DNA of 64,000 nt from Nitrospirales bacterium (GTDB taxonomy: Bacteria; Nitrospirota; Nitrospiria; Nitrospirales; UBA8639): the NCBI GenBank assembly GCA_029261355.1, contig JAJDBM010000054.1, positions 1-64,000 on the forward strand, written 5' to 3'. The notes under the pieces were generated by a model, which worked only from the letters and a program-made list of their open reading frames with translations, did not search any database and had not been told where the DNA came from. Below, one piece after another: positions 17,747 through 54,408 of the stretch; position 1 is the first letter of the stretch; each line of letters begins with the position of its first letter. The translations under genes and the position numbers were made by a program.

Positions 17747-17779
17747 TTCGGTAACTTTTTAAAGACATCATTTGTGAGA

Positions 17780-18952
17780 ATGAATATGAGCACATTTCGA
17801 AACCTTCTGAAAACGCACCTTATCCTCACTCTGCTTGTCGTCATAGGATTCTTAGCCATCAGTGGAGTGACGATTCGCTATATCTCCCAGGCCTATGCTT
17901 CAAAAGACGCCCAGACTTCTGCCGGGCCACCGATTCCCTCTGTTGATGTGGTGACGCTACAACCACAATCCATTCGCAGTTGGAGTAAATTTTCTGGACG
18001 TTTACGAGCTGTAGATTATGTGGAAGTACGTCCTCGCGTGGGAGGGACGATTATGAACGTATTGTTTGAAGATGGCACTCTCGTTGAAAAGGGTGACTCA
18101 CTGTTCATGATTGATCCTCGACCCTTTAAGACTGAGTTCGCGAGTGCACGAGCTGAGCTTGAGTCGGCAGAGTCTCGAGCAACGCTCACCAAGCAGGAAC
18201 TGATGCGTGCAAAAGGGTTGGTGAAAAAGAACGCCATTTCTCAAAGTCGGTTTGATACGGCGAAAAACGATTATCGAATGGCGATGGCTTCAATTAATTC
18301 AGCCAAGGCCCGAATCAGGCGAGCCCATTTGGATCTCGAGTACGCCCACATCAAGGCCCCGGTATCTGGTCGGATTAGTCGTGCTGAAATTACTGAAGGA
18401 AATGTTATCGAAGCTGGCCCCAATGCTCCTGTGCTGACCACGATAGTTTCGATTGATCAGCTTTATGCGGAATTTGATGTGGATGAGCAGACCTATATCA
18501 AAACGAGGAGGCAATCAATCGGAAACACGATGCCCGTCGAATTAACACTCACGAGTGATGACAGCGTGGTGTACCAGGGGGTGATTCATTCATTTGATAA
18601 CCAATTGAATACCACATCCGGGACAATCCGAGCTCGGGCCATTTTCGACAACAAAGATGGAGCGCTGGTCCCTGGAATGTTTGTGGCAGTGCGTTTGGGT
18701 GCTCCCAGCGAGCAATCGACCTTGCTGGTGAGCGACCGTGCCGTGCGTACAGATCAAGATAAAAAGTATGTGTATATTGTCACTCCCGACAAGAAAGTGG
18801 CATATCGTGAGGTGAGACTAGGAGAGCCACGGGAAGGACAGCGTGTCGTGCTCTCTGGCCTGGCACCTGGAGACCAGGTATTGGTCAACAGTTTGCAACG
18901 TGTCCGCCCTGATATGGAAGTACAACCGGTCGACATTACTGGAAAAAAATAA
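17780..18952 (+). CDS. RND efflux periplasmic adaptor subunit
   Basis: A ~390-residue membrane fusion protein. After an N-terminal hydrophobic segment come a lipoyl/barrel-sandwich half (V-R-P-R-V-G-G-T-I-M-N-V), a coiled-coil hairpin between about 115 and 190, the second lipoyl half (I-K-A-P-V-S-G-R-I-S-R), and beta-barrel and membrane-proximal domains (L-V-P-G-M-F-V-A-V-R). It bridges the inner-membrane pump and the outer-membrane channel encoded next. The exact start is uncertain: GTG 17774, ATG 17780 and ATG 17786 are all in frame, and none has a strong ribosome binding site. Confidence 0.92.
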   Translation: MNMSTFRNLLKTHLILTLLVVIGFLAISGVTIRYISQAYASKDAQTSAGPPIPSVDVVTLQPQSIRSWSKFSGRLRAVDYVEVRPRVGGTIMNVLFEDGTLVEKGDSLFMIDPRPFKTEFASARAELESAESRATLTKQELMRAKGLVKKNAISQSRFDTAKNDYRMAMASINSAKARIRRAHLDLEYAHIKAPVSGRISRAEITEGNVIEAGPNAPVLTTIVSIDQLYAEFDVDEQTYIKTRRQSIGNTMPVELTLTSDDSVVYQGVIHSFDNQLNTTSGTIRARAIFDNKDGALVPGMFVAVRLGAPSEQSTLLVSDRAVRTDQDKKYVYIVTPDKKVAYREVRLGEPREGQRVVLSGLAPGDQVLVNSLQRVRPDMEVQPVDITGKK

Positions 18953-19019
18953 GTTCCCGGTTACTGTCAATGCGTGACTTCCAGTCACGAATGTTTCAAC
19001 GAACGAGAGACCTCGAATC

Positions 19020-22000
19020 ATGAATATCGCAAAGATCTTTATCGACCGACCAATTTTTGCAGGAGTTCTATCGACCCTGATCTTTCTCAGCGGCCTGATT
19101 GCGATGTTTCAATTACCGATTTCTGAATACCCTGAAGTTGTGCCACCTTCCGTTGTGGTTATCGCTCATTTCCCTGGTGCAAACCCCAAGGTTATTGCCG
19201 AGACTGTCGCGACGCCGCTCGAAGAACAGATTAACGGTGTGGACAACATGTTGTATATGTATTCGCAATCAACGTCTGATGGGAAGATGACGCTGACTGT
19301 TACCTTTGACCTGGGAACTGATCCTGACCTCGCTCAGCAGCTGGTGCAGAACCGAGTCTCTCAGGCTGTACCGCGCTTACCTGCCGTTACCAGACAATTG
19401 GGCGTGACGACGATTAAAAGCTCACCCCAACTGACCATGGTGGTTCATGTGAAGTCCCCGAATGATCGCTATGACATGCTCTATTTGCGTAATTACGCTG
19501 TTCTGAATATCAAGGATGAATTAGCCAAAATTGCTGGTGTTGGACAGGTGCAGCTGTTTGGGGCTGGAGATTATGCCATGCGCATTTGGCTCAATCCTGA
19601 AAAAATTGCTGAACGCAATCTCACGGCAGGAGATGTCGTTAATGCTGTTCGTGAACAGAACGTTCAGATTGCAGCTGGAATCATTGGTGGTGCTCCTTAT
19701 GCGGATGTGGTGCAGCTGCAACTACCTGTGAATGCCAAGGGACGGTTAGAAACGCCAGAAGAATTTGAGCAAATCATTGTTCGAACCGGAGCAGAAGGAC
19801 AGATTACGAGACTGAAAGATGTGGCAGGTGTGGAGATGGGGGCTTCGGAATATGCGTTGCGCTCCTTACTCAATAATAAGAATGCCGCGGCCATACCGAT
19901 TTTTGCCTCACCTGGCGCCAATGCGCTGGATATTTCAAACAATGTTCGGGCGAAAATGGAAGAGCTGAAAAGAAATTTCCCTGAAGGTGTTGACTACAGT
20001 GTTGTCTATGACCCGACGATATTTGTGAGAGACTCTATTAAAGCCGTGATTGTGACGCTCCTGGAAGCGATTGCTCTCGTTGTCCTGGTGGTCATTGTAT
20101 TCCTTCAGACATGGCGTGCGTCTATTATTCCATTGTTGGCAGTTCCCGTCTCCATCATTGGAACCTTCGCGGTTCTCTATCTGTTTGGGTTTTCCATCAA
20201 TGTGCTGACATTGTTTGGCTTGATTCTCTCAATTGGAATTGTTGTTGATGACGCTATTGTTGTCGTGGAAAACGTCGAGCGTAATATTGAAAATGGCCTC
20301 TCCCCAAAAGAAGCCACCTATAAAGCCATGCGCGAAGTTAGTGGTCCGATCATTGCTATTACGCTTACACTCATCGCCGTGTTTGTACCGATTGCTTTTA
20401 TCAGTGGCCTAACTGGACAGTTTTATCGTCAATTTGCGTTGACGATTGCCATTTCCACTGTGATTTCTGCGTTTAACTCACTGACCTTGAGTCCGGCTAT
20501 GGCGAGTCTGCTCCTTAAGCCAAAAGGTCAGGGCAATGATTGGTTGACGCGGGGAATGAATTCGATTTTTGGAAGATTTTTTGAAAAGTTTAATCAATTT
20601 TTCAAATTTAGTTCAGACAAATATTCCAGTGGTGTTGGGAAAATTATCATTCGTCGGAGTGTGGCCCTCACGATCTATCTGGGGTTATTGACGGCCGCAT
20701 ACGGCATGTTTAATCTTGTGCCAGCCGGCTTTGTTCCATCTCAAGACAAACAGTATTTAGTGAGCTTTGCTCAACTGCCAGATGGTGCCACCTTGGATCG
20801 AACTGAATTGGTGTTGGATGAAATGTCTAAACTTGCGCTCCAAACACCGGGTGTGAGTGGGGCAGTCGGATTTCCAGGACTCTCGATCAATGGCTTCACC
20901 AATAGCTCTAGCGCAGGGATTGTATTTGTCACCCTCGATGAATTTGATAAACGAACCAACTCGTCGATGTCTGGATTTGCGATCAGTCAAACGCTGCAAG
21001 AAAAGTATAATGCCATTGAGGAGGCATTTGTTGCGATTTTTCCTCCACCGCCGGTTGAGGGGCTTGGCACAATTGGTGGGTTCAAGCTCCAGATCGAAGA
21101 CCGAACTGACCAAGGTTATCAGGCTTTACAGGAAGCGTTGGGGAAGGTTATGGACAAAGCCTACGCAGCATCGGAACTGACTGGCGTTTTTTCCAGTTAC
21201 AAAATTAGCGTACCGCAACTTTATGCGGATTTGGATCGTACGAAAGCTAAGCAACTTGGACTCAACATTAACGAAGTGTTTGAAGCCATGCAGATCTATC
21301 TCGGATCGCTCTATATCAATGACTTCAACACGTTTGGGCGTACGTACCAAGTGATTGCGCAGGCCGAAAAACAGTTCCGTGATGCCCCGAATGATATCCT
21401 GAACCTCAAGGTTCGAAATCGTAGAGGCGAAATGGTCCCACTGGGTTCTGTGTTGGAGCTCAGCGAAACGTTCGGACCGGAATCTGCTCAGCGATATAAC
21501 GCGTTTCGAGCAGCAGATCTGAATGGAGATGCCGCACCAGGATACTCCTCAGGTCAGGCACAAGATACGATCACGAAGATCTTAGAAGAGACTCTTCCTC
21601 CCGGTATGCAGTTTGAGTGGACGGATCTCACGTATCAGAAAATTCTAGCAGGCGATTCAACGATGTACGTGATCCCGCTGGTTGTGTTTCTCGTTTTCCT
21701 TGTGCTGGCTGCACTCTATGAGAGTCTCACTCTTCCGCTGGCGATTATTCTCATTGTGCCCATGAGTAGCCTGTTCGCGTTGATTGGCGTATGGCTGACT
21801 GGTGGCGATAACAATATCTTCACACAGGTCAGCCTGTTTGTGCTTATGGGACTCGCGACCAAAAATGCCATTTTGATTGTGGAGTTCGCTCGGGAACTGG
21901 AGGAGAAAGGCCGAAGCATTACCCAGGCGGCGATTGAAGCTAGTCGATTGCGTTTGCGTCCCATTCTCATGACCTCGTTCGCATTCATCATGGGTGTCTT

Positions 22001-22205
22001 GCCGATGGCCGTCTCAAGTGGTGCCGGGGCTGAAATGCGAAACGCTATGGGTATTGCCGTATTTGCCGGCATGCTGGGGGTGACGTTTTTTGGTTTGTTC
22101 CTTACCCCCGTATTCTATGTGGTGCTACGCAAATTAGAAACTCGTTCTTCGAAAAACAAAATTATTAGTGAAGAGCTCAGACATGATGCCGTACCCAACA
22201 ACTAA
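19020..22205 (+). CDS. RND multidrug efflux permease (HAE1 type)
   Basis: A 1061-residue pump of normal AcrB/MexB length with twelve expected transmembrane helices and two large periplasmic loops. The proton-relay pair is present in G-I-V-V-D-D-A-I-V-V-V-E-N-V-E-R (helix 4), with the matching Lys in helix 10 (A-T-K-N-A-I-L-I-V-E-F). The N-terminus (F-I-D-R-P-I-F-A) is typical. It takes up hydrophobic or amphiphilic compounds from the membrane and periplasm and exports them with the adaptor and outer-membrane factor. HAE1 class is clear; the substrate is not. Confidence 0.95.
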   Translation: MNIAKIFIDRPIFAGVLSTLIFLSGLIAMFQLPISEYPEVVPPSVVVIAHFPGANPKVIAETVATPLEEQINGVDNMLYMYSQSTSDGKMTLTVTFDLGTDPDLAQQLVQNRVSQAVPRLPAVTRQLGVTTIKSSPQLTMVVHVKSPNDRYDMLYLRNYAVLNIKDELAKIAGVGQVQLFGAGDYAMRIWLNPEKIAERNLTAGDVVNAVREQNVQIAAGIIGGAPYADVVQLQLPVNAKGRLETPEEFEQIIVRTGAEGQITRLKDVAGVEMGASEYALRSLLNNKNAAAIPIFASPGANALDISNNVRAKMEELKRNFPEGVDYSVVYDPTIFVRDSIKAVIVTLLEAIALVVLVVIVFLQTWRASIIPLLAVPVSIIGTFAVLYLFGFSINVLTLFGLILSIGIVVDDAIVVVENVERNIENGLSPKEATYKAMREVSGPIIAITLTLIAVFVPIAFISGLTGQFYRQFALTIAISTVISAFNSLTLSPAMASLLLKPKGQGNDWLTRGMNSIFGRFFEKFNQFFKFSSDKYSSGVGKIIIRRSVALTIYLGLLTAAYGMFNLVPAGFVPSQDKQYLVSFAQLPDGATLDRTELVLDEMSKLALQTPGVSGAVGFPGLSINGFTNSSSAGIVFVTLDEFDKRTNSSMSGFAISQTLQEKYNAIEEAFVAIFPPPPVEGLGTIGGFKLQIEDRTDQGYQALQEALGKVMDKAYAASELTGVFSSYKISVPQLYADLDRTKAKQLGLNINEVFEAMQIYLGSLYINDFNTFGRTYQVIAQAEKQFRDAPNDILNLKVRNRRGEMVPLGSVLELSETFGPESAQRYNAFRAADLNGDAAPGYSSGQAQDTITKILEETLPPGMQFEWTDLTYQKILAGDSTMYVIPLVVFLVFLVLAALYESLTLPLAIILIVPMSSLFALIGVWLTGGDNNIFTQVSLFVLMGLATKNAILIVEFARELEEKGRSITQAAIEASRLRLRPILMTSFAFIMGVLPMAVSSGAGAEMRNAMGIAVFAGMLGVTFFGLFLTPVFYVVLRKLETRSSKNKIISEELRHDAVPNN

Positions 22206-23640
22206 GATATTCAGGCTAGGGATTCTCATTCTGGCCCTCCTGGTTCTATCGGCATGTTCAGTCGGTCGGGACTATCAGGCACCGGAAATTGAGCCTTTGG
22301 TTCAAGACCAGTTCTTGGAACAGGATCAAGGTCGCTTCCAAGCCACTGAGCCCATTATTGCCTGGTGGCGAGAATTTAATGAAAACCAGCTCAGTCTGTT
22401 GGTTGAACAAGCACTTGATCATAACCTCGATGTTCGTATTGCTTTAGCCAACTTGCAAGAAGCACGTTTTTTGTTAGGTGAAACCAAGTTCGATCGCTTT
22501 CCGACCATCGAAGCTGATGGCGATCTTACTCGTCAGCTACAAACAGAGGAAGGTTTATTTCCCCCGTTCGGTGATCGAGTGCAGACGACGTATAACACGG
22601 GTTTTGATGCATTATGGGAATTAAATTTATTTGGCCGTGTCAGTCAGCGTATTGCGGCATCTGAGGCCAACTTAGAAGCCCGTGAGGCCGATCTCGAGGC
22701 CTTTTATGTGACGATCGCCGCAGAAGTTGCTCGAACGTATATCGAGTTGCGAGGAGCACAATACCGATTAGATGTCGCCAGACGAAACACGGACAATCAA
22801 CAACAAACGTATGACCTGACGCGTGATCTGTTTGAAGGAGGGGTCAGTGATAAGCTGGATATTGAGCGAGCCAACACCCAGCTAGAATTGACGAAGTCTA
22901 CGATTCATCCACTTGAAGCGGAGGTGAATGGGGCGATGAATCGCTTGGCAGTTTTGACAGGGCAACCCCCAACGGCCTTGCACGATTTACTCCTAGCCGA
23001 TAAGGCCCTTCCATCCATTCCGAGTACAGTTAATGTTGGAAATCCCGTCGATCTACTTAAGCGCCGACCAGACATTCGGGCGGCCGAACGAGAATTTGCC
23101 AGTGCTGTGGCCGAATATAATTTGAATGTTGCCGACCTCTATCCCAATGTCACATTCAAGGGCAGTCTTGGTTTTTCATCTACTTCGATTTCTAACTTAT
23201 TAACCGGGGGAGCGGGGACGTATCTCCTTGGCCCTCAAATTAATTGGGCTGCATTTAATATTGGTCGTGTACGTGCTCGGATTGATGCAGCTGATGCCAG
23301 AACTCATGCACGTCTGGCATCATTTGAAAAAACCGTCTTGCAGGCCTTGGAAGAGACCGAGACGGCTATGGTCAAGTTCTCGCGTGAGGAACGGAGCCGG
23401 GCTCACTTGCAGAATGCTGCGGCGTCCAGTGCTAAGGCTGTGAGCTATGCTCAAGACCGGTTCGAGGCAGGAATAGACAATCTTCTTGATGTCCTTGTGG
23501 CTCAACGGACTATGCTTGAAGCCCAAGATCGATTGGCGAATAGTGAAATTAACGTCGCACTGAACCTTATTTCCATTTATAAAGCCCTCGGTGGAGGATG
23601 GCAGGTAAAAACATCTTCTGCTATGACCGCAGCTCACTAA
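22183..23640 (+). CDS. TolC/OprM-type outer-membrane efflux factor (NodT family lipoprotein)
   Basis: A 485-residue outer-membrane factor with a lipobox L-S-A-C near residue 26, so it is probably lipid-anchored. It has two repeats of the OEP fold, with W-W-R-E-F-N-E-N-Q-L-S-L near residue 55 and R-R-P-D-I-R-A-A-E-R in the second half, both signatures of the OprM/NodT group. Start codons ATG 22183/22186 overlap the end of the pump gene by about 20 bp, implying translational coupling. It completes the tripartite pump. Confidence 0.93.
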   Translation: MMPYPTTKIFRLGILILALLVLSACSVGRDYQAPEIEPLVQDQFLEQDQGRFQATEPIIAWWREFNENQLSLLVEQALDHNLDVRIALANLQEARFLLGETKFDRFPTIEADGDLTRQLQTEEGLFPPFGDRVQTTYNTGFDALWELNLFGRVSQRIAASEANLEAREADLEAFYVTIAAEVARTYIELRGAQYRLDVARRNTDNQQQTYDLTRDLFEGGVSDKLDIERANTQLELTKSTIHPLEAEVNGAMNRLAVLTGQPPTALHDLLLADKALPSIPSTVNVGNPVDLLKRRPDIRAAEREFASAVAEYNLNVADLYPNVTFKGSLGFSSTSISNLLTGGAGTYLLGPQINWAAFNIGRVRARIDAADARTHARLASFEKTVLQALEETETAMVKFSREERSRAHLQNAAASSAKAVSYAQDRFEAGIDNLLDVLVAQRTMLEAQDRLANSEINVALNLISIYKALGGGWQVKTSSAMTAAH

Positions 23641-26258: not shown

Positions 26259-29200
26259 ATGTTCCCCTCTGCCCCCAAGCCTCCTAATGAAGCCGAACGA
26301 CGTCGAGTACTTGGGGAGTACCGAGTACTCGATACTCATCCAGAAGAATCCTTTGATGATCTTACTCTGCTAGCAAGCGAGATTTGCCAGACACCCATTG
26401 CCCTCATTAATTTTGTTGATTCGGATCGACAATGGGTGAAGTCGAACCTTGGTTTGGCAGCTCATGAAGTTTCTCACCATTTTGAGTTTTGTACTCAAAC
26501 ACTCCATCAATCTGATGTGTTTATGATTCCCGATGCTGTGGTTGATCGTCGGTTCTCAGATTGTCAGCTCGTTACCCAAGGCTCCAAGGTTCGGTTCTAT
26601 GCAGGTGTTCCTCTACAGACGCCAGAAGGGCATGTCCTTGGAACGTTGTGTGTGATGGATCGAGTGCCACGTGACTTATCAGTCAAACAGAAGGACGCAT
26701 TACGTGCGCTAAGTCGTCAGGTGGTGATTCTCCTTGAATATCGCTGTGAACTTTTTCAATCAGGGAAGAGCACGTCGAGACAGCTTAAAGAGGAGTTACA
26801 GGAAAAAGAGGAGCATATTTGTCTCTTGATGGAGTCCACAGCTGAGGGGATCTATGGTGTCGATCTCGAAGGGTTGTGTACCTTCTGTAACCCTGCATGT
26901 CTTCAACTGTTAGGGTATGAGGGTCGTGAGGAATTATATGGCCAAAATATGCATGCCCTCATTCACCATACTCAAGAAAATGGTGTGCCATGTGGCATAT
27001 GGCAGTGCCAAATGTCCAGCTCTTTTCAGAGTGGAAATGGAGTTCATGTTGCGAGTGAAATTTTCTGGAGAAAAAATGGAATAAGTTTTCCGGTTGAATA
27101 CTGGGCCTATCCCATCTTGCGTGAAGGTCAATTGATCGGATCCGTGGTGACCTTTGTCGATATTACTAAACGGAAACAGGCTGAGGAAGCCTTACAGGAA
27201 ATGAATGTTGCGCTGACCCATGCCACTCCTGGAATTTCTCTCTTAAATTATGATGGGTGTTATCTACAGGTTAACCATGTGTATGCCACGCTTCTTGGAT
27301 ACCAACCCCAAGAGTTGCTTGGTCAATCCTGGAGCCCGACGGTTCATCCTGATGATTATGCGAAGGCTTTGACCGCTTTTGATATCATGAAAGCGACAGG
27401 CAAAGGAGAATTTGAGGCCAGAGCCATACGAAAAGATGGGTCATTCTTTTATAAGCATGTTGTGATGGTGAAGGGGATTGCCAAAGTGGGCGTTCCTGAG
27501 AGTTACCATTGTTTCATGCGTGATATCACCGTGCGAAAACAGACGGAAGACGAACTTGATGCGCAACGAATTTTTTTTCGACAAGTCATCGATGCCATTC
27601 CCAACTTCGTTTTTGTGAAAGACCAGGCGGGCAAGTTCCTGCTTGCTAATCAAGCGGTTGTAGGGGCTTACGGTACAACTGTTGAGGCGATTCTCGGTAA
27701 ATCAGATGCCGATTTTAACGACAATCTCGAAGAGGTAGAGTTTTTTCGACAAAAGGATCTCATGGTGTTGAACTCCTCACAAGACTTATTCATTCCCGAA
27801 GAACTGATCACGGATGCAGCGGGAAAGACTCATTGGTTGCAGACCATCAAGCGCCCACTGATAGACAGAGATGGTGCGACACATGCTGTTCTAGGAGTTT
27901 CGACCGATATTACTTCTTGGAAGCAAGCTCAGGAAGCCCTGAAGGTAAGTGAAGAACGATTGCGTCTTGCCCTTGAGGCAAGTCGGGAAGGGGTGTGGGA
28001 CTGGGATATCTCCACAGGAACGGTGCTTTTTAGCTCACGGTGGCGGGAGTCTTTAGGGTTTTCCTTCGAAGATGTCGAGCCAACAATGGTCTTTTGGGAG
28101 GAACTGGCTCATCCGGATGATCGATTGCCAATGTCAGAAGTTCTCAACGCTCATCTTGAAGGCCATATTTCTATGTTTGAATATGAAAGTCGATTACGGA
28201 CTAAATCTGGCATGTATCGATGGAACCTTCGACGTGGGAAAATAGTGGTTCGTGATCATACTGGGACCCCACGTCGAATGGTTGGGGTGGATATTGATAT
28301 CACAGATCGAAAACGAGCAGAAATGGCGTATCTCCAAGATAGTAAACTTGAATCGGTCGGAATGCTTGCTGGAGGTATTGCCCAGGATTTTAATAGTTAT
28401 CTGATGACTATTCTTGGGGCCATTACCCTGGCGCAACATGCTCTTGCGCCGGAGACACAGGCTAATTCTCATCTATCGATTGCGGAGTCTGCATGTGAAG
28501 ATGCGAAAAGCTTAAGTGCACGGCTCTTGACCTTTTCCAAGGGGGGAAGTCCCGTCAAAGAAGTCGTGATGGTTGAAGAGCTGATCAACAAGTCAGCCGG
28601 ACTTGCCTTGAGCGAGCCAAATATCAGATATACAGCCAATTTTTCTCCTGATCTGTTCTCTGTCAATGTCGATTGTGGACAGATGTGTCAAGCTTTACAT
28701 AATGTTCTTCTCAATGCTCAGCAAGCTATGGCCAATGGTGGATTGATCACCATACAAGCCGAAAATTTGGTTCTTGATAGCAACATGTCACCATCGGGTA
28801 CAACGCTGCAGCCAAATCATTACGTGAAGGTTTCCATTGACGACCAAGGGCCAGGAATGGCGTCTAGTATTATGGAGAAAATTTTTGATCCTTATTTTAC
28901 GACAAAGCCTCAAGCGGTAGGGTTAGGTTTAACGACAACGTTTTCAATCTTGAAAAACCATGGTGGAGATATCACCGTAGAATCTCATCCTGATATTGGC
29001 AGTACGTTTTCCCTCTATCTTCCAGCTTCAGGTACAAAGGCTTCAACAAAAACCTTAGAACAAAAAGGTGACGTCGTGACAGGTCAGGGCTTAGTCCTGA
29101 TTATGGATGATGAATTATGTATTCGCGAAGTTCTCGGGGCCATGTGTGAACAATTAGGATACTCTGTAGAACTAACATGCGATGGGGCGGAAGCAATCGA

Positions 29201-29465
29201 GCGAGTTGGCCGATATCAACGAGTTGAACAACGTATCGATGCCGCAATTCTTGATTTAAGTATACCTGGAGGAATGGGAGGGAAGGACGCAGTTGGAAAG
29301 ATTCGTGATATTGATCCTCGGATAAAAGTGCTGGTGTCGAGTGGATATAGCGACGATGATGTTTTAAGTAATCATAGCGAGTTTGGTTTTGATGGCGTGA
29401 TCAAGAAACCCTATAACTTGTCAACGCTGAGTCAGGCTCTGAATTCAATTCTGGGCGATATCTAA
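26259..29465 (+). CDS. GAF/PAS hybrid sensor protein with a kinase core lacking the phospho-acceptor His
   Basis: A 1068-residue cytosolic protein without obvious transmembrane helices. Order: N-terminal GAF (about 20-165), four PAS domains (about 190-310, 310-430, 440-560, 565-690, several ending in D-I-T-x-R-K), a dimerisation helix, an ATPase domain (N-box H-N-V-L-L-N-A-Q-Q-A; G1 D-Q-G-P-G-M; G2 G-L-G-L-T-T-T) and a receiver domain with phospho-acceptor Asp999. The dimerisation motif normally reads G-G-I-A-H-D-F-N; here it is G-G-I-A-Q-D-F-N with Gln709 (CAG, 28383-28385). Since His is the phosphorylated residue, classic autophosphorylation should be lost. It may act as a phosphatase, an allosteric partner, or be decaying; the rest of the gene is intact. 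Confidence 0.9.
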   Translation: MFPSAPKPPNEAERRRVLGEYRVLDTHPEESFDDLTLLASEICQTPIALINFVDSDRQWVKSNLGLAAHEVSHHFEFCTQTLHQSDVFMIPDAVVDRRFSDCQLVTQGSKVRFYAGVPLQTPEGHVLGTLCVMDRVPRDLSVKQKDALRALSRQVVILLEYRCELFQSGKSTSRQLKEELQEKEEHICLLMESTAEGIYGVDLEGLCTFCNPACLQLLGYEGREELYGQNMHALIHHTQENGVPCGIWQCQMSSSFQSGNGVHVASEIFWRKNGISFPVEYWAYPILREGQLIGSVVTFVDITKRKQAEEALQEMNVALTHATPGISLLNYDGCYLQVNHVYATLLGYQPQELLGQSWSPTVHPDDYAKALTAFDIMKATGKGEFEARAIRKDGSFFYKHVVMVKGIAKVGVPESYHCFMRDITVRKQTEDELDAQRIFFRQVIDAIPNFVFVKDQAGKFLLANQAVVGAYGTTVEAILGKSDADFNDNLEEVEFFRQKDLMVLNSSQDLFIPEELITDAAGKTHWLQTIKRPLIDRDGATHAVLGVSTDITSWKQAQEALKVSEERLRLALEASREGVWDWDISTGTVLFSSRWRESLGFSFEDVEPTMVFWEELAHPDDRLPMSEVLNAHLEGHISMFEYESRLRTKSGMYRWNLRRGKIVVRDHTGTPRRMVGVDIDITDRKRAEMAYLQDSKLESVGMLAGGIAQDFNSYLMTILGAITLAQHALAPETQANSHLSIAESACEDAKSLSARLLTFSKGGSPVKEVVMVEELINKSAGLALSEPNIRYTANFSPDLFSVNVDCGQMCQALHNVLLNAQQAMANGGLITIQAENLVLDSNMSPSGTTLQPNHYVKVSIDDQGPGMASSIMEKIFDPYFTTKPQAVGLGLTTTFSILKNHGGDITVESHPDIGSTFSLYLPASGTKASTKTLEQKGDVVTGQGLVLIMDDELCIREVLGAMCEQLGYSVELTCDGAEAIERVGRYQRVEQRIDAAILDLSIPGGMGGKDAVGKIRDIDPRIKVLVSSGYSDDDVLSNHSEFGFDGVIKKPYNLSTLSQALNSILGDI

Positions 29466-46397: not shown

Positions 46398-47897
46398 TTA
46401 TTCTTCTCGATCGATGCCGAGTTTTTCCATACGCCCTCGTAAGGTCGAACGATTGACCCCAAGGAGCTGAGCTGCTCCTTTTTCTCCAGAAATGCGCCAT
46501 TTTGTAGAATCCAGTGCACGAAGGATATGGAGTCGTTCAATTTCTTCGAGAGACAGAAAGGCGGTTGTTTCCGGGGAGGGCTGTGGCAACATTTGGTCCA
46601 TGGGTGATGACATGGTTGTTTCAGACTGACTGCCAAGCCAATTTCCCATCTCAAGAGTGTGATTTTTGTTCACAATCACGGCCCGTTCAATTACATTTTC
46701 TAGTTCTCGTATATTTCCAGGCCAAGGATAATTCATCAATTCACGATGACTATCTGGGTGTATATCCGTCACTGTCCTCCCATGTCTCTCCGAGAATTTT
46801 TTAAGAATATGCCTAAAGAGTAAGGGTAAATCTTCTTGACGTTCACGAAGAGGTGGAATATTTACGGGGAACACATTCAGGCGGTAATAGAGATCTTCTC
46901 GAAATTGTTTCTGGGCCACAGCTTCTTGGAGGTCTCTGTTTGTGGCGGCAATGATGCGGACATCAACTTTTTGGGTACTGTGTCCTCCGACTCGTTCGAA
47001 TTCTTGTTCTTGAAGCACACGCAATAGTTTGGATTGAATATCGAGAGGGAGTTCTCCGATTTCGTCAAGAAAGAGCGTGCCTCGATGGGCCAGTTCGAAT
47101 CGACCGACACGTTTGCTCGTTGCCCCAGTAAAAGCACCCTTTTCATGGCCAAAAAACTCACTTTCAAATAAGTCTTTGGGAATGGCCGCGCAGTTGACTT
47201 TGATCATGGGCAAGTCGGCTCGAGCGCTCTGTTCGTGAACGGCCCGAGCGAGTACTTCTTTGCCGGTCCCAGTTTCGCCAATGAGCAGAACCGTGCAATC
47301 CGTTTTTGCCGCTTGTGCGACGTGATCAAGTGCCTCTCGAATCGAGGGACTGCTCCCGACAATCCCTCCGCCAACTTGTTGGGATTGTAGTTCATCCTGA
47401 AGGTACCGAACCGTTCCCTTAGTTCGAGTATGAGCATCGATTTCCTCTTGCAGCAGCTGATTCTGCTCTTCAAGGTGAACTTTTTGACCTTCCAACTTAC
47501 AGCAGAGTTCCCGAAGAGCTAGATGCGTTCGCACGCGTGCGAGTACTTCTTCTTGGTGAAACGGTTTCGTGATGTAATCAACGCCACCGACCTCGAATCC
47601 CTTAACTTTTTCGATGGTTTCCGAAAGCGCAGTCATGAAAATTATAGGAATATCTCTCGTATCAGGGTTAGCTTTCAAGCGTGTGCAGGTCTCGAACCCA
47701 TTTAGTTCGGGCATCAAAACATCGAGCAAAATGAGGTCTGGGTGCTCGCGTCGGATAACTTCCTCCGCATCATTTCCATCCTCGGCTACGAGCACTTTAT
47801 AGCCTGCGTCATCCAAAAAGGCTGAGACAATCTGAAGATTGGTCGGAGTGTCGTCCACAACCAAAATTTTTCCGTGGGACTCAGCTCGTATCGTCAT
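46398..47897 (-). CDS. Sigma-54-dependent response regulator (NtrC family)
   Basis: A 499-residue protein: receiver domain (acid pocket V-V-D-D-T, phospho-acceptor in L-L-D-V-L-M-P), coiled-coil linker, AAA+ ATPase with Walker A G-E-T-G-T-G-K-E, the sigma-54 contact loop G-A-F-T-G-A and Walker B L-F-L-D-E-I, and a Fis-type helix-turn-helix at the end ([13 protein letters not shown]). It activates sigma-54 promoters after phosphorylation. Its start overlaps the stop of the hybrid kinase by 4 bp (47894-47897), so that kinase is the likely partner. Confidence 0.94.
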
Positions 47898-50467
47898 GAT
47901 GTTTGACCTTTGAGATTTTCAAGGAACAAGCGTAGCTTTTTGACTTGAAACTGTTGGGCAAATGTTCGGACCTTGTTGATAAAGGTTTGATGAGCTGGGT
48001 CAGTTTCCTCAAACAACTGAAGGCGGTGGAGCACTTGTGTCATATCTCCAGATGCAACCAATGTTTGGAGTTCGTGAATGACGTCAATGGGCGGGATGAT
48101 GAGCTCCGTTGGTGAAGTTTCTTGATCCTGAGGGATCGTTGCCGTTGGGTCTGTCTCTTGATCGTAGGTAATGGAAAGATGGAGATGTTCACAGAGTAGC
48201 CGTACAAGTTTGCCAATTCGAAAGGGTTTTGAGAGGAATCCATCCGCTCCTGCCTCGAGACATTCGGTTCGATTGTGCTCAAAGGAACTGGCGGAAACCG
48301 CCAAGATTATCAAGCCTCTCATGTCGGGTAGAGTCCTAATTTGTTTTGTTGCTTCTAGGCCATTAAGTTGTGGCATACGTAAATCCATTAAAATTGCATC
48401 AGGCTTTTTGATTGCGAGCTGTTTAAGGCATTCTTGCCCATTCGTGGCCTGTTGGACCGTAAAGCCAAGAGGGCGCAACGCATCTGCTAAGAATTGTCGA
48501 TTGTCTGCCTTATCATCGACCACTAAGATGTTTCGTTTTGGCCCGACGACTCCAAGAATGATCCGTTCCTCTTGCCCAAGGTCTTGTTCCGTGACGTCAG
48601 CTTCAGGGAGTTCAAGGTCAAACCAAAAACTGCTGCCTTGACCGTAAACACTGGCGGCTTCAAGTTTACTGTCCATTAAGTGCACGAGCTTTTGACCGAT
48701 CGTAAGTCCGAGGCCTGTTCCCTCTGGCATCAGGTTTGAGTGATGTATTTGTCGAAACGCCTGAAAAATAGATGCCAAGTCGTCTGGATTGATGCCGACA
48801 CCGGTATCCTCGACTAAGAACCGAATGGCCTTGTCGTGATATCCCACCTTGAGCGCAATGCCTCCCTCCCGTGTATACTTAATTGCGTTGTCGAGTAAGT
48901 TGATCAATACCTGACGAAGTCGTTTAATATCGCCCATGACAATGCGGGGAAATTCTGAGAGCAGTTCGAAGGTGAACATGAGCCCGTTGTCTTCAGCTCG
49001 AGCACGCATGATGTTGACTAACGATTCAAGCATGGGGCGAAGCGAAAAGGGTTCGGTGTAGATCTCGAGGCTTCCCGCTTCTATGCGGGTGAGATCTAAG
49101 ATTTCATTGATGAGTCCGAGAAGATGCTCCCCTGACTGCTCAATCACCGAAATGGCTGTTTGATGGGATGTCGCCACGGATTTGTCATTTTTCAGGAGTT
49201 GTGCATATCCTAAGATTCCAGTGAGTGGAGTACGAAGCTCATGGCTCATCGTTGATAAGAATTCACTCTTGGCTCGATTGGCCAGTTCTGCTGCTTCTTT
49301 GGCTGCCTGAAGCTCACGTTCGGCCGCAATACGTTTGGTAATATCTTTGCCATAAATCGTCACGAATCCTTCTTCTTGAAACGGGACAAAGAATAAGGAA
49401 TATATCTGTGGCTCAACTCCGGTTTCGAGATATTTATTGGATCCAGTTGTGCTCACTTCCCCAATAACTTGAGCGATCGATGATGGCGCGACGTTTCCTT
49501 TTTTACATTCCCACATTGTTAGGAGTGTTTGACTGGCTGGATTGGCATAGACAATTGTCCCATCGTTTGCCAGTCTCAGAACGGGATTTGGATTCATGTC
49601 AGGAAATTTTGTGCTCGCTTGCGCAGACTTCTCAGCTGCCTTTCTTGCTGTAATATCTCTGAGAAATCCACTAAAGACGATTCTTCCATGAGAAGGTAGC
49701 GGTGTAATACTCAGCTCAATAGGAAATTCATGGCCATCTTTGTGGAGTCCTGTGATTTCGATTCGCTGTTTGAGAAGCTTGGCTTCTCCAGTTTCCACCA
49801 TACGTTTTAGTCCGGCGCGATGTGCTTCTCGATATTCTTGTGGGACGATGGTTGTTTCTAAACTCTGGCCGATGGCTTCTTCTCGCTTCCAGCCAAAAAT
49901 CGTCTCAGCTTGATGATTCCACCCTGTAATGATGCCTTCTGAATCCATGGCAACGACTGCGTCGAGGGCGTTGTCGACGATCAGGCGGGTGGTTTCGTCA
50001 CTTTCACGGAATCCGGCTTCTATCCACTTGCTCTGAGTGATATCAATCATGACGGCCACAAGCCGACAATCGAGACTTTCCTTATCGGTAACGAATTGTC
50101 CACGGTCGTAAATATAGGCATAGCTGTCATCCGCACAGCGAAACCGATATTCTGCTGACCAGAGGGAGTTCGTCGTCTGCAGGGCTTTCTCTAGTTCCTC
50201 GAGGACAGCTGTTCGGTCTTCCGGATGCAGACGGTCCTCCCACCATTGGCTTGTTTGACCGACCTCATGTTTGGCATAGCCAAAATGCTTTGATTCTCCG
50301 AATTCCCAAGTCATGATATTGGTCATGAGATGACAATCACGAACAACGCCGCATGACTGCGCCACCATGGACCATGGTTGATTGTGAGGCTGAGATTCTT
50401 GACCCCGGTTACGGGGAGGAATGGATGAGGGGGGTTGGTTTTTCATCGTCGAGTCATATGTTGGCAT
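47894..50467 (-). CDS. PAS-domain hybrid histidine kinase with receiver domain
   Basis: An 857-residue cytosolic sensor kinase. Three PAS-type domains (about 40-150, 160-280, 285-375), a dimerisation helix with the intact motif M-S-H-E-L-R-T-P-L (phospho-acceptor His409), the ATPase domain (N-L-L-D-N-A-I-K-Y; D-T-G-V-G-I; G-T-G-L-G-L) and a receiver domain (V-V-D-D-K; I-L-M-D-L-R-M-P). The last ~100 residues are helical and might be a phosphotransfer-like module, but no H-x-L-K-G motif is seen. No transmembrane helix, so a cytosolic signal is likely. A Pho-box-like repeat lies 84 bp upstream of the start. Confidence 0.92.
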   Translation of the reverse strand: MPTYDSTMKNQPPSSIPPRNRGQESQPHNQPWSMVAQSCGVVRDCHLMTNIMTWEFGESKHFGYAKHEVGQTSQWWEDRLHPEDRTAVLEELEKALQTTNSLWSAEYRFRCADDSYAYIYDRGQFVTDKESLDCRLVAVMIDITQSKWIEAGFRESDETTRLIVDNALDAVVAMDSEGIITGWNHQAETIFGWKREEAIGQSLETTIVPQEYREAHRAGLKRMVETGEAKLLKQRIEITGLHKDGHEFPIELSITPLPSHGRIVFSGFLRDITARKAAEKSAQASTKFPDMNPNPVLRLANDGTIVYANPASQTLLTMWECKKGNVAPSSIAQVIGEVSTTGSNKYLETGVEPQIYSLFFVPFQEEGFVTIYGKDITKRIAAERELQAAKEAAELANRAKSEFLSTMSHELRTPLTGILGYAQLLKNDKSVATSHQTAISVIEQSGEHLLGLINEILDLTRIEAGSLEIYTEPFSLRPMLESLVNIMRARAEDNGLMFTFELLSEFPRIVMGDIKRLRQVLINLLDNAIKYTREGGIALKVGYHDKAIRFLVEDTGVGINPDDLASIFQAFRQIHHSNLMPEGTGLGLTIGQKLVHLMDSKLEAASVYGQGSSFWFDLELPEADVTEQDLGQEERIILGVVGPKRNILVVDDKADNRQFLADALRPLGFTVQQATNGQECLKQLAIKKPDAILMDLRMPQLNGLEATKQIRTLPDMRGLIILAVSASSFEHNRTECLEAGADGFLSKPFRIGKLVRLLCEHLHLSITYDQETDPTATIPQDQETSPTELIIPPIDVIHELQTLVASGDMTQVLHRLQLFEETDPAHQTFINKVRTFAQQFQVKKLRLFLENLKGQTS

Positions 50468-51345: not shown

Positions 51346-54300
51346 ATGAGTGCTCATTCCCTTCATTCCCAAACTTTTTGCCAAAAGACAACTTCGACGA
51401 CAAAGTCCCAGAAACGTCTCGTACAACCAATAATTTCGCTTGCCAAACTTACGCCTCCTTCCTTACCGAGACTCGTAGAACGTCCACACCTGATTGAGCA
51501 AATCGATCAAATTCGACAGAGGGGCACAAAGGTGTTGTGGATTCAGGCTGCTCCTGGTGCGGGAAAAACCACTTTGGCTGCGAGTTACCTGCTAACGACG
51601 AAACGACGGGCCCTTTGGTATCAATTGAATGCCGGCGATGCCGACCCCGCTACTTGGTTCCATTATTTGACACTAGGAATTGAGGAGGCTGCACCGCGTT
51701 TTCGTAAGCCGATGTTGGCATTGGAGCCGGCTTACATGGCCGACCTTCCTGGCTTTACGCGGCTCTTTTTTGAGCAACTTTTTAGTCGACTCAAATCACC
51801 TGGGCTGTTGATTTTTGATAACTATCACGAGCTTCCCTCCGATAGTCCCGTGCAGTCACTCATGATTGAGGCCTTTCGCACCGTACCGCCTGGTGTCTGT
51901 TGTATGGTCACAAGCCGACAGGCCCCTCCTCCAGCCTTCGCGACCTTGATTGCCGACCAATCCCTGGTGGAGTTCTCTGCCTCAGAGCTCTCCTTTGACC
52001 TTTCCGAAACGCGACGCCTTCTAGCTCTTCATCACGTCAACGATGCAAGCATGTCGTCGGATTGGGCTCAGCAGCTTCATACACATACGCAAGGTTGGGT
52101 GGCTGGGGTCATCTTGTTAGGAACCCAACGACCGTCAAATCCTTTGACCTCTTCCATGTCACAAGCTGTTTCCCTCAAGGCTGGAAAAACAGCTGATCAC
52201 TCAGTCCTCATTGACTATTTTGTACAAGAAGCTCTCACGCGTCTGTCTCCGGATGTTCGCATGTTGCTGTTGAAGACCGCGATGTTTTCCTCCTTCAGTG
52301 CACAGATAGCCCAACGTCTGACGGGATTGTCACAGGCAGGATATGAACTCAATAAACTCGCGCGTGCGCGTTATTTTGTTGAAAGCCGTGATGGGGTTTT
52401 TCAGTACCACCCACTCTTTAAGCAGTTTTTGTCTCAACAGGCTGTACTGGAATTTGGCCATGATTCCTGGCGGGTTCTTCAGTCAGAGGCGGCGGAACTG
52501 TTGGTAGAAGATGGGTGGGTGGAGGAGGGGATTCGGCTCTTTCTCGAGTCTGGCCAAACGCGTCATGTGAGCCGTCATTTGATCGAACAAGCTCCCTCCT
52601 TGATGGAGCAGGGACGTTTTCAGACATTGTCTCATTGGATAGCATGCCTGCCAGCTCAAGAATGCGAGCGTGAGCCATATTTGCTGTACTGGAAAGGCAT
52701 GAGTCAGGTTGTTCACAACCCCGCGGAAAGTCTACAGCGTTTTGAGTCTGTGTTTTCCATATTTCAAACTCGTGGGGATGTGAGTGGCATGTTATTAGCT
52801 GCCAGTGGTGCGATCTACGCTATCGACTTTACCTGGACAGGTTTTGATCGAATTGATAAGTGGCATTCAATCATTGAGGCTTTGTGGGACAAGAATGTTG
52901 CGAGCCTTTCTCCCGATGTGCAATCGTCCGTGATCATCGCAATGATGCGTAGTCTCTTTTGGCGTCAGCCACACCGAAGGATTCTCCAATCATGGCTCAA
53001 ACGAGCCGAAGCATTTATCCAGCATTATGATCGTGTGAGTGAGCTCACGATTATCGTCCATCATATTCTCTGTTGCTCTCGTAGTTTTGGGAGTATTCAA
53101 GAGGCGGTTCAAGCAATTACTCCAGTGTGTAAGCAGCTTGATCAACTGGCGCTGTCACTTCCTACTCAGGTGGCGTGGGAGATATCGCAAACAGGAATTT
53201 CCTGGGTTACTGGAGAATTTCGTGAAGCCAAAATTCATTTTCAACGTGGTTCTGAATACATCCACGAAGTGCCGGTCTTTCGAGGGCCGATGATATTCAA
53301 TGGGTTATATGCTGCTCTGCACAGTCAAGACTTTGAACATGCCGACACCATTGTGTCGAACGAATATTTTACTCTCCAGCATATGGGACTGGCGTTCTAT
53401 GCCATTGGCACTTTTCAACAAGGATGGTTCCATGCGCTAAGAGGGAATTTAAAAGAAGCTCATGATTGCGCACAAGAAAGTATCGTGTTGGCTCAGCAAT
53501 CCAAAGCGCAACATTTCGAGGCTGTGGCGATCTTAGGTTTTGCTACCGTCTTAGCCGCAGCCAATCGATTTGAAGAGGTAGAAAAACCTTTGTCTGAAGT
53601 TGAATCGATTGCTGACAAGATTGAACATATTTCCCTGAGCTATTCGTGTCATGTGCTTCGTGCGTATGTCTTATTAAAGACTCGTCCTTTCTCTGACGTT
53701 ATTCCCGTATTGACTCAGGCATTCAATCTCGGCAGGCAACATGATATTTTTTATACGTACGAATCGTGGCTACCTAGTATTCTGGCTCCCTTATGTGCTC
53801 ATGCAATAGAAGAAGATATTGAGTTTGACTATGTGAGGCAGCTCATTCAGGCGAAGAAGCTGACGCTCGATTCGACAAGGGCAGGGACGTTAAATTGGCC
53901 ATGGCCAATTCGTATTCAGACGTTGGGGTCGTTCCAAATTATTACAGAAGCCGGGCCTGTCACATTTGCGCGTAAGGCTCCCCTTACGCCGTTGCGTTTG
54001 TTGAAGCTCCTGATCAGTCTAGGGGGGGGAGACATTTCACTCACGCGGTTGGCTGATGATCTGTGGCCTGATGCGGAGGGTGATGCCGCTTATCGGTCGA
54101 TTTTGACGAATCTTGCCCGTCTGCGAAAGTTGCTGGGTCGAGAAGATGCGTTACGTGTGCGGGGTGGAGTCTTGAGTATCAATACGTGTCTTTGTTGGGT
54201 GGATAGCTTGGCTTTTGAGCATATGGCCAAGACCGCTCTCGCAGCTTCAAGTGTGGGAAATAAGATCGAGGCTCGAACCTTGGCGACTCGTGCCCTATCT

Positions 54301-54408
54301 CTCTATCATGCTCCCTTTCTCGCAGGTGAGGAGGCACTTGTTGAAGTCGAAGTCACACGGATGCGTTTGGTCACCCTTCATACGCAACTGATGTCGGCAA
54401 TGCTTTAA
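51346..54408 (+). CDS. MalT-like ATPase regulator with C-terminal OmpR-type winged helix
   Basis: A 1020-residue STAND-type regulator. Near the N-terminus a P-loop A-A-P-G-A-G-K-T-T (Lys74), Walker B-like L-L-I-F-D-N-Y-H, and sensor segment M-V-T-S-R; then a winged-helix NTPase region and a long TPR-like helical array (about 380-850). The end (about 850-960) has L-G-S-F-Q-I, F-A-R-K-A-P-L-T-P-L-R-L-L-K-L-L and L-A-D-D-L-W-P-D-A-E-G-D, which is a Trans_reg_C/SARP-type winged helix rather than the LuxR helix-turn-helix of MalT. An eight-G run lies in codons near 54022-54029. Ligand unknown. Confidence 0.85.
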   Translation: MSAHSLHSQTFCQKTTSTTKSQKRLVQPIISLAKLTPPSLPRLVERPHLIEQIDQIRQRGTKVLWIQAAPGAGKTTLAASYLLTTKRRALWYQLNAGDADPATWFHYLTLGIEEAAPRFRKPMLALEPAYMADLPGFTRLFFEQLFSRLKSPGLLIFDNYHELPSDSPVQSLMIEAFRTVPPGVCCMVTSRQAPPPAFATLIADQSLVEFSASELSFDLSETRRLLALHHVNDASMSSDWAQQLHTHTQGWVAGVILLGTQRPSNPLTSSMSQAVSLKAGKTADHSVLIDYFVQEALTRLSPDVRMLLLKTAMFSSFSAQIAQRLTGLSQAGYELNKLARARYFVESRDGVFQYHPLFKQFLSQQAVLEFGHDSWRVLQSEAAELLVEDGWVEEGIRLFLESGQTRHVSRHLIEQAPSLMEQGRFQTLSHWIACLPAQECEREPYLLYWKGMSQVVHNPAESLQRFESVFSIFQTRGDVSGMLLAASGAIYAIDFTWTGFDRIDKWHSIIEALWDKNVASLSPDVQSSVIIAMMRSLFWRQPHRRILQSWLKRAEAFIQHYDRVSELTIIVHHILCCSRSFGSIQEAVQAITPVCKQLDQLALSLPTQVAWEISQTGISWVTGEFREAKIHFQRGSEYIHEVPVFRGPMIFNGLYAALHSQDFEHADTIVSNEYFTLQHMGLAFYAIGTFQQGWFHALRGNLKEAHDCAQESIVLAQQSKAQHFEAVAILGFATVLAAANRFEEVEKPLSEVESIADKIEHISLSYSCHVLRAYVLLKTRPFSDVIPVLTQAFNLGRQHDIFYTYESWLPSILAPLCAHAIEEDIEFDYVRQLIQAKKLTLDSTRAGTLNWPWPIRIQTLGSFQIITEAGPVTFARKAPLTPLRLLKLLISLGGGDISLTRLADDLWPDAEGDAAYRSILTNLARLRKLLGREDALRVRGGVLSINTCLCWVDSLAFEHMAKTALAASSVGNKIEARTLATRALSLYHAPFLAGEEALVEVEVTRMRLVTLHTQLMSAML
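54022..54029. repeat. Eight-base G run inside the MalT-like gene
   Basis: Codes for part of L-G-G-G-D in the DNA-binding region. Slippage would shift the frame and remove the end of the DNA-binding domain. Confidence 0.6.

Follow-up and report, generated by a model that had tools for sequence, protein, structure and literature searches.

A hybrid sensor kinase encoded in the window (the whole 64,000-nucleotide stretch of Nitrospirales DNA analyzed here) carries a glutamine in place of the phospho-acceptor histidine, which raises the question whether the sequence is wrong, the gene is decaying, or the protein takes part in signaling by other means than kinase chemistry. A HisKA domain that lacks its histidine is unable to transfer phosphate to a receiver. 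The DNA at 28371-28394 is GGAGGTATTGCCCAGGATTTTAAT, which translates to GGIAQDFN, and the Gln709 codon reported in the first-pass annotation is confirmed both in the DNA and in the 1068-amino acid ORF (Table 1); all of the nearest relatives examined have GGxAHDFN. The architecture is that of a hybrid histidine kinase, with sensor, DHp, CA and receiver domains in one chain (by Pfam, and by alignment and structural modeling in the case of DHp). The GAF domain, the four PAS domains and the receiver that had been read from the translation are all found by Pfam and NCBIfam, with four PAS S-box stretches detected by the latter.

The Pfam HisKA model, which finds 61 domains in the 4.6-Mb genome of this bacterium, has no match in the 1068-amino acid protein at E-values up to 0.01. 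The missing match alone carries little weight because some of the His-bearing relatives also score near the cut-off of the model. The best NCBIfam matches are PRK13557 and CckA, and the best match among the solved structures is 5idj, a histidine kinase core of the CckA/GGxAHDFNN type. The AlphaFold2 model, a monomer prediction that was run with 24 related sequences and carries no partner information (mean pLDDT 84, pTM 0.64), consists of two long DHp helices, the first of which contains Gln709, followed by a CA domain of ordinary form and a receiver with the (beta-alpha)5 fold; that is, the DHp/CA/REC fold is predicted to be intact.

Table 1. Layout of the Gln709 sensor gene and of its key codons (window coordinates).
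Feature	Coordinates	Strand	Evidence
Complete ORF, GAF-PAS x4-DHp-CA-REC hybrid sensor, 1068 aa	26259..29465	+	Uninterrupted frame
GAF domain, aa 28-157	26340..26729	+	Pfam PF01590
PAS domain 1, aa 189-302	26823..27164	+	Pfam PF00989
PAS domain 2, approx. aa 310-427	27186..27539	+	PF00989 and PF13426 (three stretches each), TIGR00229 (four); borders approximate
PAS domain 3, aa 445-553	27591..27917	+	PF08448
PAS domain 4, aa 591-677	28029..28289	+	PF08447
DHp domain, aa 692-766, modeled as a pair of long helices	28332..28556	+	Alignment and predicted structure
Codon 709, CAG, Gln replacing the phospho-acceptor His	28383..28385	+	DNA and alignment
Codon 713, AGT, Ser replacing the H+4 Asn (HisKA phosphatase residue)	28395..28397	+	Alignment; role of the position: PMC3510030
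CA (HATPase_c) domain, aa 809-923, N, G1 and F boxes intact	28683..29027	+	Pfam and alignment
Codon 886, GCG, Ala replacing the first Gly of the G2 box	28914..28916	+	Alignment
Receiver domain, aa 946-1061, catalytic residues all present	29094..29441	+	Pfam and residue check
Asp999, receiver phospho-acceptor (with D950/D951, S1028, K1050)	29253..29255	+	Residue check

The gene is an orphan. The flanking genes, of which one encodes a carboxymuconolactone decarboxylase-type protein and the other a DUF188 protein, lie on the opposite strand on both sides; no response regulator that would be an evident partner was found adjoining the gene, and a promoter scan of the upstream region yielded a single weak site that did not rise above shuffled sequences. 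A conventional HisKA hybrid kinase (47894-50467, minus strand) adjoins an NtrC-type sigma-54 response regulator (46398-47897, minus strand) at a distance of 18 kb, and nothing connects this pair with the Gln709 gene. Elsewhere, the window encodes an RND efflux set (17774-23640, plus strand; HlyD-type fusion protein, AcrB-type pump and outer-membrane factor) and a 1020-amino acid protein (51346-54408, plus strand) that matches an NPHP3-type NTPase region and MalT-type TPRs only weakly and for which the family assignment is not confident.

The acceptor histidine is not the only catalytic residue that is missing. The H+4 position is occupied by Ser713, that is, by neither the Thr nor the Asn that bifunctional HisKA phosphatases require, and, in the ATP-binding boxes, N819, D862-x-G864-x-G866 and F876/P878 are kept but the first glycine of G2 is Ala886, so that the earlier description of the ATPase motifs as intact holds for the N, G1 and F boxes only. 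The receiver retains the acidic pair D950/D951, D999, S1028 and K1050, the full set of residues of a phosphorylatable receiver, and Asp999 is intact as originally stated. In an alignment of 107 kinase cores, where the His-containing ones were reduced to 51 non-redundant sequences and breaks of invariant columns were scored in a leave-one-out scheme, the Gln709 protein breaks three otherwise invariant columns (H709Q, N713S and G886A), compared with none in 45 of the His-containing relatives and one in the remaining 6. DHp is the most diverged domain, with an unusually low mean identity to same-family relatives of 0.477 (0.532 for the lowest relative); the CA domain is slightly low (0.432 versus 0.446 for the lowest relative), and the receiver is ordinary (0.462 versus 0.454, within the range). 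The triple residue loss and the divergence centered on DHp, next to an ordinary receiver, indicate that kinase chemistry is the part that was given up. The protein had been called full-length and otherwise well-kept; the former is correct but the latter is not, given the loss of the H+4 Asn and the G2 Gly and the state of DHp.

Among the eleven matches to GGxA-X-DFN in the same genome, the other ten all have CAT or CAC at the acceptor position, and Gln709 is therefore not a chance occurrence. Across the phylum, the Gln codon is found in this motif in 3 of 396 genomes; matches with a His codon number approximately 420 (hand-summed) in a sample of 100 genomes. In a published survey, 0.9% of the HisKA domains (722 of 76,471) were without the histidine (PMC12632262). 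Taken together, the phylum counts and the survey figure imply that the feature is uncommon, yet of a known kind, so that ‘unusual', the word chosen in the first-pass annotation, is apt but should not be read as unprecedented. A scan for other non-His codons in the motif, which left out codons starting with CG, CC or CT, added one further true H-less kinase, L128 (genome G154), a hybrid kinase with the motif GGIANDFNNLL, in which Asn occupies the acceptor position, the H+4 Asn is kept and a receiver is present. The candidates L129-L132 were rejected as H-less kinases, the kinase frame being absent.

No orthologue of the Gln709 protein was found in 5 genomes of the genus and 49 genomes of the family, in which the best relatives share 32-45% identity with a part of the protein only and, where examined, have His. 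A scan of GTDB contigs with strict seeds retrieved nothing closer, and a plasmid search retrieved no orthologue. Same-family hybrid kinases, each with a single in-frame stop, were encountered at L005 (TAG after the DHp motif, FANIG*AKML) and in genomes G010, G268 and G409; these are split genes, pseudogenes or errors.

Two of the three genomes with the Gln codon belong to sister species (L110 and L111) from another family of the same order, where the protein in question has the architecture REC-DHp-CA-REC. A search of the respective genus (that of G262) detects this protein in 28 of the 29 species. The motif is readable in 27 orthologues (L133-L159), with GGxAHDFNN in 24, GGLAQDFND in the 2 sister species and GGLARDFND in 1 (L159, an Arg case that was reached only via its orthologue group). 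The H+4 Asn is replaced by Asp in all three H-less orthologues, and in one member of the Gln pair, the first G2 Gly is gone as well. The three cluster in the tree (support 0.86) on long branches and may derive from one single loss event; the Gln709 protein, L110 and L111 do not count as three separate Gln events, given that the latter two come from sister species. The loss of His in this family arose independently of the Gln709 protein. Of the columns that are invariant in the His orthologues, the three H-less proteins have changed 7-9 of 55 in DHp, 7-9 of 110 in CA and 2-3 of 94 in the C-terminal receiver. For the Gln species pair, dN is 0.029 and dS is 0.207, and the ratio of 0.14, which is above most of the close His pairs (mostly 0.05-0.10, one 0.16) and far below 1, indicates that the Gln version in that family is held by selection.

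The fate of the H+4 residue can be compared across all these proteins. Asn is found at this position in each of the 112 distinct His-containing motifs among the loci in hand, and in only one of the five H-less sequences (L128, NDFNN), the other four having S, D, D and D. Counted by events, Asn is lost in 2 of 3 H-less cases versus 0 of 112 His-containing ones, with a Fisher p-value of 0.0005 that is only indicative, owing to the relatedness of the sequences and the post hoc choice of the column.

An error of sequencing or assembly at the His codon has a negligible probability: CAG is one base away from CAC and CAT, but Ser713 and Ala886 would need independent errors at two more invariant positions and, because the three substitutions are in separate places, a base-calling error is implausible and one sequencing error cannot explain the pattern. 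It is also very improbable that the role of the acceptor has shifted to H727 or H738, the two downstream histidines of DHp. A shift of this kind has been raised as a possibility for a Caulobacter protein (PMC11481889), but the two residues are not conserved as His in the relatives and are 18 and 29 residues off, near the helix end and the second helix in the model. Enzymatic action in trans, whereby the CA domain would phosphorylate the His of a mixed-dimer partner or the protein would dephosphorylate its own or a different receiver, appears improbable too. The first variant accords with the kept N, G1 and F boxes but not with Ala886 at the first G2 glycine; the second accords with CrdS H371A, which keeps phosphatase activity, the His being dispensable for it (PMC3510030), but not with H+4 being Ser rather than Asn or Thr. 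In CrdS, the H+1 and H+4 residues separate kinase from phosphatase, a change of Asn to Asp at H+4 abolishes both activities, and Thr at H+4 gives partial phosphatase activity (PMC3510030), for which reason, by analogy, some phosphatase activity may remain with Ser713.

Gradual erosion of a kinase gene, in a lineage that no longer needs the kinase, with the catalytic residues the first to go and the frame still open, is unlikely without being far-fetched. The 1068 codons contain neither a stop nor a frameshift, the GAF and PAS domains still score strongly, the receiver residues are complete and the parallel Gln pair from another family is under purifying selection, all of which argue against decay, even though the failure to find an orthologue in the genus and family genomes and the relaxation of three catalytic residues and of the whole DHp would fit it.

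The Gln709 protein is most likely a genuine pseudo-histidine kinase of the hybrid form, as judged from the sequence and the predicted fold. Pseudo-histidine kinases are described as having the histidine kinase fold without at least one of the histidine kinase functions and as still belonging to a signaling network (PMC12632262), and on sequence and predicted fold, the Gln709 protein has this fold and appears to lack one or more of these functions. The protein is very probably not an autokinase. The original proposal of a full-length pseudo-kinase, with a non-kinase role that now looks likely, is better supported than could be known at the time, since the joint loss of three catalytic positions goes with an untouched receiver.

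In such a protein, autophosphorylation at the canonical site would be impossible and phosphatase activity would be poor at best. The GAF/PAS array would still drive a conformational change of the dimer, and the output would be by contact: the protein would either form a mixed dimer with one of the cell's numerous His-containing kinases or control it allosterically. Asp999 would be phosphorylated by the partner kinase or another donor, in which case the protein would read out or buffer another pathway instead of starting one. That a functional protein works by this combination of contact and receiver is somewhat probable. The 61 HisKA matches in the 4.6 Mb of this genome make for a densely populated kinase network that offers numerous potential partners.

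The alphaproteobacterial protein DivL, with Tyr550 for His, is without kinase or phosphatase activity, senses a regulator and controls the activation of CtrA, acting by control of another kinase, CckA (PMC4211667). DivL resembles the Gln709 protein in the multiple PAS domains, the kept histidine kinase fold, the replaced acceptor His and the expected lack of kinase and phosphatase activity, but it lacks a receiver, shows conservation over a whole class and has a known regulator, DivK~P, as binding partner, whereas the Gln709 protein has a fused receiver and no orthologue that was found, and is also changed at H+4 and G2. In sequence, CckA-type and ZraS chains match the protein better than DivL (4q20) does. 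With Gln at the acceptor position and a receiver present, the protein does not belong to the DivL family, though it is possibly alike in its way of working. CckA and the GGxAHDFNN-type hybrid kinases share the DHp/CA/REC core but keep the His, the H+4 Asn and the first G2 Gly. Caulobacter CCNA_03265, likened here by description, similarly combines an H-less DHp with an intact receiver Asp, and either mixed dimerization or phosphate supply by an outside donor has been proposed for it (PMC11481889). ChrS of Corynebacterium glutamicum is a dead kinase that works through HrrS, with the formation of ChrS-HrrS mixed dimers (PMC9491836); the catalytic inactivity and the route via a partner kinase match the role proposed for the Gln709 protein, but ChrS is non-hybrid and its defect is a laboratory-evolved frameshift in CA. 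RetS inhibits GacS by heterodimerization via the DHp domains, largely independently of its own phosphorelay residues (PMC4866733), and can be likened, again by description, as a hybrid kinase that controls another one by DHp contact, as proposed here. The differences are the other organism, the other sensor and the known partner.

To our knowledge, few pseudo-histidine kinases have a known function. The present case adds to the known picture the triple residue loss and an independent, selected Gln lineage, and the group of His, Gln and Arg orthologues is a ready comparison set in which the question of His loss can be tested directly. In the Gln709 protein and the Gln/Arg group, the residues lost together are the acceptor His, the H+4 Asn and, sometimes, the G2 Gly, and the receiver stays. 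It is conceivable, if doubtful, that receiver-bearing sensors that have dropped the acceptor His and the phosphatase Asn are a recurrent functional class. If this is true, the kinase core would have become a part for docking and dimerizing, the receiver, phosphorylated by other kinases, would perform the main job, and the flow of information would be reversed relative to a normal hybrid kinase.
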